Positions 29,562 to 41,285 of a stretch of 64,000 nucleotides of DNA are shown piece after piece; position 1 is the first letter of the stretch; each line of letters opens with the position of its first letter. This DNA is from an uncultured Bacteroidota bacterium (lineage in GTDB: Bacteria > Bacteroidota > Bacteroidia > Flavobacteriales > Flavobacteriaceae): the NCBI GenBank assembly GCA_902523635.1, contig CABZAE010000003.1, positions 1-64,000 of the forward strand, written 5' to 3'. The notes under the pieces are model-generated. The model was not told the DNA's origin, did no database searches, and worked only from the letters and a program-made list of their open reading frames with translations. The translations under genes and the position numbers were made by a program.

Positions 29562-30128
29562 TTAATTCCAACCTATCATAAACCTTTTTATTTTGGTTTT
29601 TGGTGGTATATCTTTAGCTTCAATTTTTTTTATTGTCCCCTTTTGCAAATGCTTCGGTAATTTATTTTTATCAATTATGAAATAAGCATCTATTTCATCA
29701 ACAAAAATAACTAAATTATTAATTGTATTTTGAATACTTGATATGTTGTGATTTTTTTTTATATCAGAGAAATTGCTTAAAAGATTTATACCTTTATTGG
29801 ATTTGAAAATTGGGCTTTTTATCTCAATAGTTTCAATTTTTTCATTTAAATCGTGTTGTTGATGTGGCGTCAATGTCAATAAATGATTTCCTGACTTATC
29901 ATACAGGAGATATTTATCCTCACTAGAATACATGTAATCACCCTCGCCAATTCTTTTTACAATTGAATCATTTGAAAAGATGGAATCAAGATCTTTCACT
30001 TTTGATTCCTTTTTTAGAAATCCAATAGATCCTTTACTAATTAAATAATTATTATTTAACTCATTGCAGCTAGATAAAAAAAGTAAGAATGAAAAGAAAA
30101 AAATGTTTTTCGCAAATCTATATATCAT
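29562..30128 (-). CDS. Predicted lipoprotein of unknown function
   Basis: The 188 residues begin with a signal peptide, NIFFFSFLLFLSSC, whose LSSC lipobox predicts lipidation of Cys21. The mature part has VKDLDSIFSNDSIVKRIGEGDYMYSSEDKYLLYDKSGNHLLTLTPH, an alternating hydrophobic pattern suggesting beta structure, and a basic C terminus. Similar proteins occur next to queE in other Flavobacteriia, as far as I recall; no function is known to me. It is divergent from queE. Confidence 0.75.
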   Translation of the reverse strand: MIYRFAKNIFFFSFLLFLSSCNELNNNYLISKGSIGFLKKESKVKDLDSIFSNDSIVKRIGEGDYMYSSEDKYLLYDKSGNHLLTLTPHQQHDLNEKIETIEIKSPIFKSNKGINLLSNFSDIKKNHNISSIQNTINNLVIFVDEIDAYFIIDKNKLPKHLQKGTIKKIEAKDIPPKTKIKRFMIGWN

Positions 30129-30132
30129 TTTC

Positions 30133-30161
30133 TAAATGTAATAATTCATTTTAAATACCAA
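30133..30161 (-). promoter_or_regulatory. Promoter of the lipoprotein gene, start codon 4 nt from the -7 box
   Basis: Reading on the minus strand: TTG, 18 bases, TACATTTA, four bases (GAAA), then the ATG. The spacing fits the TTG-N17-23-TAnnTTTG rule, with A in place of the last G. Transcription would begin at or next to the start codon. Confidence 0.55.
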
Positions 30162-30175
30162 TAAATTTTATACCA

Positions 30176-30183
30176 TATATTTG
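30176..30183 (+). promoter_or_regulatory. queE -7 box TATATTTG, 4 nt before GTG start
   Basis: An exact TAnnTTTG match followed by TTTA and then the GTG start codon of queE. No matching -33 TTG is seen. If functional, the mRNA would be leaderless or nearly so. Confidence 0.6.
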
Positions 30184-30187
30184 TTTA

Positions 30188-30820
30188 GTGAGTGATCAGG
30201 AATTAAAAATTAATTTAAAAGATGGTAAATATTTACCTGTGATGGAATCGTTTTACACCATTCAAGGTGAAGGTTTCCACAGTGGAAGCCCTGCCCATTT
30301 TATTCGAACTGCAGGATGTGATGTTGGATGTGGTTGGTGTGATGTCAAAGAAAGTTGGGATGAGGATTTACACCCTATTGTAGATATTAGAACGTTAATT
30401 AATGATGTCAAATCCGATTGTAATATCGTTGTTGTTACGGGTGGTGAGCCACTACTCTGGAACATGAAACCATTGACAAAACTATTAAAGAAAAATAATT
30501 TTAAAACTCACATTGAAACGTCCGGATCAAGTAAATTAACAGGCGACTGGGATTGGATTTGTTTATCTCCGAAAAAGAGGAAATCACCTATGTCTGAAGT
30601 CTACAAGAAGGCAAATGAGTTAAAAATGATAATTTACAACAACAGTGACTTTAAATTCGCTGAGGAGCAAGCTAAAAAAGTTAACTCACAATGTATGTTG
30701 TTCTTACAACCTGAGTGGACTAGAAAAGATTTGATAATGCCAAAAATCGTTGATTATGTAATGAAGAATAGCAAATGGAAAATATCTCTTCAAACGCATA
30801 AATATTTAAATATTCCTTAA
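30188..30820 (+). CDS. queE: 7-carboxy-7-deazaguanine synthase
   Basis: Radical SAM enzyme in synthesis of the queuosine/7-deazapurine precursor preQ0. It is 210 residues in the short QueE form. FYTIQGEGFHSGSPAHFIRTAGC leads into the cluster ligands CDVGCGWC (Cx3Cx2C), then VTGGEPLL and the C-terminal SLQTHKYLNIP. The start is GTG. A Met at residue 19 is an alternative, but the residues before it (KYLPVMESF) match the family, so I keep GTG. It ends overlapping the convergent DUF1343 gene. Confidence 0.93.
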   Translation: MSDQELKINLKDGKYLPVMESFYTIQGEGFHSGSPAHFIRTAGCDVGCGWCDVKESWDEDLHPIVDIRTLINDVKSDCNIVVVTGGEPLLWNMKPLTKLLKKNNFKTHIETSGSSKLTGDWDWICLSPKKRKSPMSEVYKKANELKMIIYNNSDFKFAEEQAKKVNSQCMLFLQPEWTRKDLIMPKIVDYVMKNSKWKISLQTHKYLNIP

Positions 30821-40799: not shown

Positions 40800-41240
40800 T
40801 CAAAAAACTTTTTTTGTTTCAATTATTTCATTAATGTTTTCAATGACATTGTGGAAATTTTCTAGAGATTCATTTCCTATAACTTCTAGTACCTTATCAT
40901 TGAATTTCATTACGGCTGCTTTTGATGATGCTCTATGTTTTTTACCTAGCTCTGTCAAATGAATTAATACACTTCTTCTGTCAATTGGATGCGGTTTTCG
41001 AGTAATTAAATTCTTAATTTCCATCGTCTTCAACGTTCTTGACAAGCTTGTTGCTTCCATCCCCATCTTTGGACCAAGTGAAGTTGATGGTGTTCCTTTT
41101 TTTGGATCAATACTCAGCAATGCAAATCCCACGGCCATTGTGCCATTGTATTTTGCAGCTTCCTCATTATACATTTTTGCTACACTTTGCCACGTTGATC
41201 TAAGAACATGGTCAATTGTCTTTTTTTTGGTCTTTGACAT
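40800..41240 (-). CDS. MarR-family transcriptional regulator, likely fad operon repressor
   Basis: Winged-helix DNA-binding protein of 146 residues from ATG 41240; the track start 3 bases earlier is a TTG. The recognition region is GMEATSLSRTLKTMEIKNLITRKPHPIDRRSVLIHLTELGKKH, with the DRR wing typical of MarR. Dimerisation helices flank it. The operon position before fadN and a 32-bp palindrome directly in front suggest autoregulation and control of beta-oxidation, probably relieved by a fatty-acid or acyl-CoA ligand (inference). The ATG lies 4 bases after a TAAATTTG box, so the mRNA may be leaderless. Confidence 0.92.
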   Translation of the reverse strand: MSKTKKKTIDHVLRSTWQSVAKMYNEEAAKYNGTMAVGFALLSIDPKKGTPSTSLGPKMGMEATSLSRTLKTMEIKNLITRKPHPIDRRSVLIHLTELGKKHRASSKAAVMKFNDKVLEVIGNESLENFHNVIENINEIIETKKVF

Positions 41241-41244
41241 CAAT

Positions 41245-41252
41245 CAAATTTA
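41245..41252 (-). promoter_or_regulatory. marR-fad operon -7 box TAAATTTG
   Basis: Exact TAnnTTTG match on the minus strand, followed by ATTG and then the marR ATG. It begins one base after the palindrome, so a repressor dimer on the palindrome would occupy the upstream promoter DNA. Confidence 0.65.
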
Positions 41253-41253
41253 A

Positions 41254-41285
41254 ATAAAAATACTATGCGCGCATAGTATTTTTAT
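41254..41285. promoter_or_regulatory. 32-bp perfect palindrome, MarR operator candidate
   Basis: Every base from 41254 to 41285 pairs with its mirror partner around TACTATGCGCGCATAGTA, with AT-rich outer arms. Two-fold symmetry is what a MarR dimer recognises, and the site directly abuts the marR -7 box. It also begins 8 bases after the purL stop on the same strand. As RNA the GC core plus flanking A and U runs could fold into an intrinsic terminator for purL. Confidence 0.85.

Follow-up and report, generated by a model that had tools for sequence, protein, structure and literature searches.

Start-adjacent -7 boxes predict a conserved minority class of leaderless genes in a marine flavobacterial genus

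The window analysed in this work is a stretch of 64,000 nucleotides from an uncultured member of the Flavobacteriaceae (contig CABZAE010000003.1 of GCA_902523635.1; the assembly is of metagenome type and partial, with 43 contigs totalling 1.2 Mb and a completeness of 62%). It contains three genes whose start codons lie 4 nt past a -7 promoter box, namely queE, the divergent lipoprotein-like gene beside it, and a marR regulator gene at a distance, with the following features:

29562 to 30128, minus strand: small lipoprotein-like gene, 188 aa, with an LSSC lipobox-like motif; predicted leaderless here
30133 to 30140, minus strand: -7 box of the lipoprotein gene, TACATTTA, a variant, read directly; 4-nt spacer GAAA, ATG at 30128
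30176 to 30183, plus strand: -7 box of queE, TATATTTG, read directly; 4-nt spacer TTTA, then GTG at 30188
30188 to 30820, plus strand: queE (7-carboxy-7-deazaguanine synthase), GTG start at 30188; leaderless mRNA predicted from 30188
40800 to 41240, minus strand: marR, MarR-family regulator gene (Pfam MarR, 1.7e-09); predicted leaderless
41245 to 41252, minus strand: -7 box of marR, TAAATTTG; 4-nt spacer ATTG, ATG at 41240
41261 to 41278, minus strand: palindrome TACTATGCGCGCATAGTA, directly upstream of the marR -7 box and also upstream of the marR genes of congeners

The identity of QueE is given by a radical SAM Pfam match and by the QGEG motif that its orthologues contain; the lipoprotein-like protein matched no Pfam family. 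Both boxes lie within the 59 nt (30129-30187) between the two divergent genes. A preliminary description of this DNA had placed all three start codons exactly 4 nt past their boxes, and reading the sequence finds this spacing at 3/3 sites; its naming of the boxes holds for queE and marR, which match TAnnTTTG, and needs amending for the lipoprotein gene, whose box ends in A and is only a variant.

Taken over the window alone, the pattern TAnnTTTGN4RTG is not significant, with 5 matches against 2.9 expected and 16 of 100 shuffles reaching 5, and three of the five matches lie away from the start of any called gene. As a raw count in the window the pattern thus carries no weight, and it is strong once restricted to real gene starts. 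For this, stretches of the source genome and of three congeners were combined to ~1.6 Mb including the window, genes were called by a hexamer-based finder, and the distance from TAnnTTTG to the start codon was measured for the 842 genes that had an upstream space of 25 nt or more. In 23 of them the box stands exactly 4 nt ahead of the start and in 40 it stands at 4-7 nt (23, 8, 7 and 2 genes at 4, 5, 6 and 7 nt, respectively); a trough of 8 genes in total at 8-11 nt comes next, and then a broad leadered mode at 12-30 nt. With the letters of the motif permuted in 29 ways, the mean at spacing 4 was 0.7 and the maximum 3, and shuffled upstream sequences gave 1.0 on average with a maximum of 4. 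The scan against shuffled sequence that the preliminary description had proposed, run here on ~1.6 Mb, therefore yields 23 genes versus 0.7-1.0 expected, an enrichment of ~20-30 fold at the gene starts of these four congeneric genomes. The same preference appears in 80 named Flavobacteriaceae loci with queE left out, where 13 boxes lie at spacing 4 and at most 2 at each spacing from 5 to 9.

Other properties of these starts were recorded in the genus sample. Among the starts called leaderless, 41 of 42 have a purine first (38 ATG, 3 GTG), at the position of the predicted +1, and the upstream stretch of such genes is taken up by the -7 box itself. Shine-Dalgarno-like 4-mers precede 23 of 1372 genes versus 25 in shuffles, which bears out the earlier premise that such sites are few in this genome. 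A -33 element (TTTG) gave no signal in the base frequencies around the box. Because 631 of the 842 genes lack a canonical box at 3-60 nt, the leaderless fraction is uncertain. Codon bias toward ribosomal-protein codon use, taken as an expression proxy, did not separate leaderless from leadered genes (P = 0.42 and 0.30), and a low expression of leaderless genes was dropped as a candidate. Across whole genomes the pattern is in roughly twofold excess over its reversed form, which is not relied on here because many of the matches need not be gene starts.

The three genes of the window differ in how their spacing is conserved. At queE, the arrangement TATATTTG-4 nt-[AG]TG recurs in 22/22 genomes of the genus, with variation in the spacer bases and in the start codon (GTG in 13/22, ATG in 9/22). 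In other Flavobacteriaceae, the queE spacing is 4-7 nt at 49 of 70 loci and 16-19 nt at 11, with none at 8-15 nt, and in these other genera 38 of the 49 leaderless-type loci have a spacing of 5-7 nt. Several named Flavobacterium loci show a queE spacing of 16-18 nt and many marine genera one of 4-7 nt, so that one gene occurs in both modes. For marR, the spacing across 21 genomes is 4-6 nt in 14 and 14-16 nt in 7, with nothing between; an in-frame alternative start, TTG, is present at 41243. The palindrome TACTATGCGCGCATAGTA is found in 20/22 genus genomes within one mismatch, and its position and conservation make it a probable, still putative, autoregulatory operator of marR. Some congeners have one to four extra copies of TACTATGCGCGCATAGTA elsewhere, possibly a small regulon.

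The lipoprotein gene is the weakest of the three sites, having a variant box and a spacing of 13-19 nt in 18 congeners. A box of the type TAC[AT]TTTA stands upstream of its orthologues in 19 congeners, and only the source genome and its closest relative (2 genomes) have a spacing of 4; a strict conservation of this spacing is accordingly ruled out, the 4 nt being common only to the sister genome. Although TACATTTA lacks the final G, boxes ending in TTTA are common at conserved promoters of the genus, e.g. in 5/6 recR orthologues. The gene is present in 19/21 congeners; of the other two, one (G008) has a broken remnant beside queE and the other (G007) no match. From the two-mode spacing of marR and of the lipoprotein gene it follows that the same promoter would be leaderless in one species and leadered in its sister, the lengths between being skipped.

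The class is specific to particular genes, and its conservation extends to other gene families. Ten further families called leaderless in the source genome, together with one divergent partner, were traced into six congeners, and a box ending in TTTG or TTTA lies at 4-7 nt in 50 of 62 orthologues, versus none of the 53 orthologues of nine leadered controls, whose spacing drifts mostly over 12-32 nt (Fisher 2.6e-21). The reciprocal-best pairs within the sampled stretches agree, with 9 leaderless-leaderless pairs. The predicted leaderless set comprises queE, recR, fur, lysA, era, nrnA, dnaX and ruvX, as well as a DUF2520 gene, a TSUP transporter gene, a DUF1800 gene and an AAA/DUF493 divergent pair, and marR joins it in most congeners; some orthologues of leaderless genes (nif3, AAA) show leadered spacing or a degenerate box. 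The divergent pair is located as follows:

L182 10076-10954; L227 6252-7130; also L269, L275-L278 and L280: AAA-type ATPase/DUF493 divergent pair

These two genes are 44-52 nt apart in seven genomes with outward-facing -7 boxes inside the gap; all seven have a box 4-5 nt from the start of DUF493, and most have one 5-6 nt from that of AAA. Because the gap is so short, it leaves little room for other promoters. As separate observations, the -7 box at conserved promoters of the genus frequently ends in A and not G (TATCTTTA, TATATTTA), and the box upstream of recR resembles TAnnTTCG in some other genera.

Among genes with a recognisable box, 42 of 210 (~20%) are leaderless-type in the genus, versus 19 of 242 in other Flavobacteriaceae sampled entirely at loci around queE (P = 0.0002) and 1 of 44, nrnA, in a small sample of two outgroup genomes taken regardless of queE (P = 0.003). 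The AT-richness of the genus makes chance boxes more frequent, which would account for ~3-4 of the 40 at 4-7 nt. In other genera, the orthologues of lysA, nif3, dnaX and DUF493 whose box and start could be located all have leadered spacing, and those of fur and era mostly do; recR and the DUF2520 gene often have, 4-5 nt before the start, a box that is intact or degenerate. These shares, together with the leadered orthologues elsewhere, suggest leader loss in the small-genome lineage. Tentatively, and with a chance that we put a little short of even, leader loss in this small-genome, AT-rich genus may have converted housekeeping genes (lysA, fur, dnaX, DUF493, nif3 and others) to leaderless expression, giving a share about threefold that of relatives, with queE, recR, nrnA and the DUF2520 gene looking leaderless, at least partly, across the family.

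What these comparisons demonstrate is the spacing: how far it exceeds chance, how it is conserved and that it has two modes. Based on them, we propose that the genus very probably has a conserved minority class of promoters of the sigma-ABfr type placed for leaderless mRNAs; the class of leaderless genes first suggested from three sites is thus supported by the ~20-30 fold enrichment, the trough and the orthologue conservation. The promoters of the housekeeping sigma factor (sigma-ABfr type) would be set so that transcription starts at the start codon or no more than ~3 nt from it, and a leaderless mRNA is expected from the position of the box and from the box-to-start distance published for relatives. 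Leaderless mRNAs are translated from the 5′-terminal start codon in a 70S or IF2-dependent manner. By this general knowledge, the predicted mRNAs would be translated through recognition of their 5′-terminal AUG or GUG with no upstream leader. Where transcription begins with respect to the box would carry over from relatives by analogy: F. johnsoniae has 4-5 nt from the box to the transcription start (PMC6847099), and in F. psychrophilum the box spans -12 to -5 (PMC9723704). Since the start lies 4-5 nt after the box in these relatives, a start codon 4 nt past the box would be the first transcribed codon. With the same distance, the trough at 8-11 nt would correspond to leaders of ~4-7 nt, which suggests that such leaders are selected against; selection would keep leaders of 0-3 nt, or of ~9 nt and more, and avoid those between.

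The alternatives concern where transcription and translation begin. The mRNAs could be leadered from unrecognised promoters farther upstream, the start-adjacent TAnnTTTG then being a translation-enhancing or merely compositional AT-rich motif. Unrecognised promoters do exist, as most genes have no identifiable canonical box, and AT-rich signals near starts have been described in Bacteroidetes (PMC3160421). However, a compositional motif agrees poorly with the permutations of equal composition, none of which exceeded 3 genes at the spacing where TAnnTTTG has 23, the tight divergent pairs leave scant space for a further promoter, and at marR and the lipoprotein gene the box is present in leaderless and leadered orthologues alike; we regard this explanation as highly unlikely. 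That the start codons are misplaced, with true starts downstream and leaders of normal length, is scarcely credible, even though codon 19 of queE is a conserved in-frame ATG. Codons 2-18 differ among orthologues 364, 129 and 804 times at the three codon positions, concentrated at third positions, an invariant Gly and Pro precede the codon-19 ATG, and no codon between 1 and 18 could serve as a start in the queE of the source genome. The GTG start of queE is therefore real, because the region from it to the next ATG evolves as coding sequence, and many unrelated genes show an equal spacing.

A closer variant is that initiation varies by a few bases and gives these mRNAs very short leaders of 1-5 nt, so that they fall short of being strictly leaderless. 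The 5-7 nt spacings common in the queE of other genera would fit it, as would the transcription start 4 or 5 nt past the box in F. johnsoniae (PMC6847099); but the mode in the genus is spacing 4 (23 of 40) and queE keeps exactly 4 nt in every genome of the genus, so we consider it rather unlikely, and it differs from the leaderless reading in detail only.

Leaderless mRNAs in Bacteroidota are already known, so the class belongs to a known kind. In published work, 5.5% of the mapped mRNAs of F. psychrophilum are leaderless, with a TAnnTTTG -7 box at -12 to -5 (PMC9723704), ~13% of F. johnsoniae transcripts have leaders of at most 10 nt, many promoters having 4-5 nt from box to transcription start and a weak -33 element (PMC6847099), and 3.7% in B. 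thetaiotaomicron have leaders up to about 10 nt (PMC7366714); the range for leaderless mRNAs in the phylum is thus 3.7-5.5%. When an earlier large survey searched with Pribnow-like boxes, only 1 of 37 Bacteroidetes/Chlorobi genomes turned out to have leaderless genes, and the survey itself stated the choice of box as a limitation (PMC3160421). A gene-start study characterised the FCB group at large by ribosome sites that are AT-rich and non-canonical (PMC9581028).

The class described here resembles that of F. psychrophilum in family, in the -7 box TAnnTTTG and in being a leaderless minority, but the evidence there is 5′-end RNA-seq and here a prediction, at ~20% of promoters with a recognisable box; the two-mode spacing and the conserved gene set reported here are absent from the available part of that account (PMC9723704). 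F. johnsoniae and Bacteroides thetaiotaomicron likewise have a short-leader minority and little or no Shine-Dalgarno use, although this was a side result in what is available of those studies, whereas conservation is followed here at the level of orthologues (PMC6847099, PMC7366714). As for the TA-led leaderless genes predicted across bacteria, leaderlessness is read from a promoter box set close to the start at a constant distance, with the Bacteroidota box in place of the Pribnow-like boxes of that survey (PMC3160421). The leaderless genes of Mycobacterium and Deinococcus, as cited in PMC9581028, also have an ATG or GTG start codon at +1, but they belong to unrelated phyla, depend on another sigma-factor box and make up a far larger share of genes. 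In the open literature we found no conserved leaderless gene set in flavobacteria. What is new here, as a prediction, is the list of conserved leaderless genes together with the two modes of spacing and a share of leaderless promoters about threefold that of relatives.

In Bacteroidota, Shine-Dalgarno sequences are barely used and the signals for translation start are still under study. The list of predicted leaderless genes and their leadered orthologues (marR, queE and the lipoprotein gene) offers matched pairs for tests of start-codon choice, and the avoidance of 4-7 nt leaders is directly testable, given the gap at 8-11 nt. The spacing also provides a simple rule for gene-start annotation in the phylum, where searches with other promoter boxes would miss such genes.
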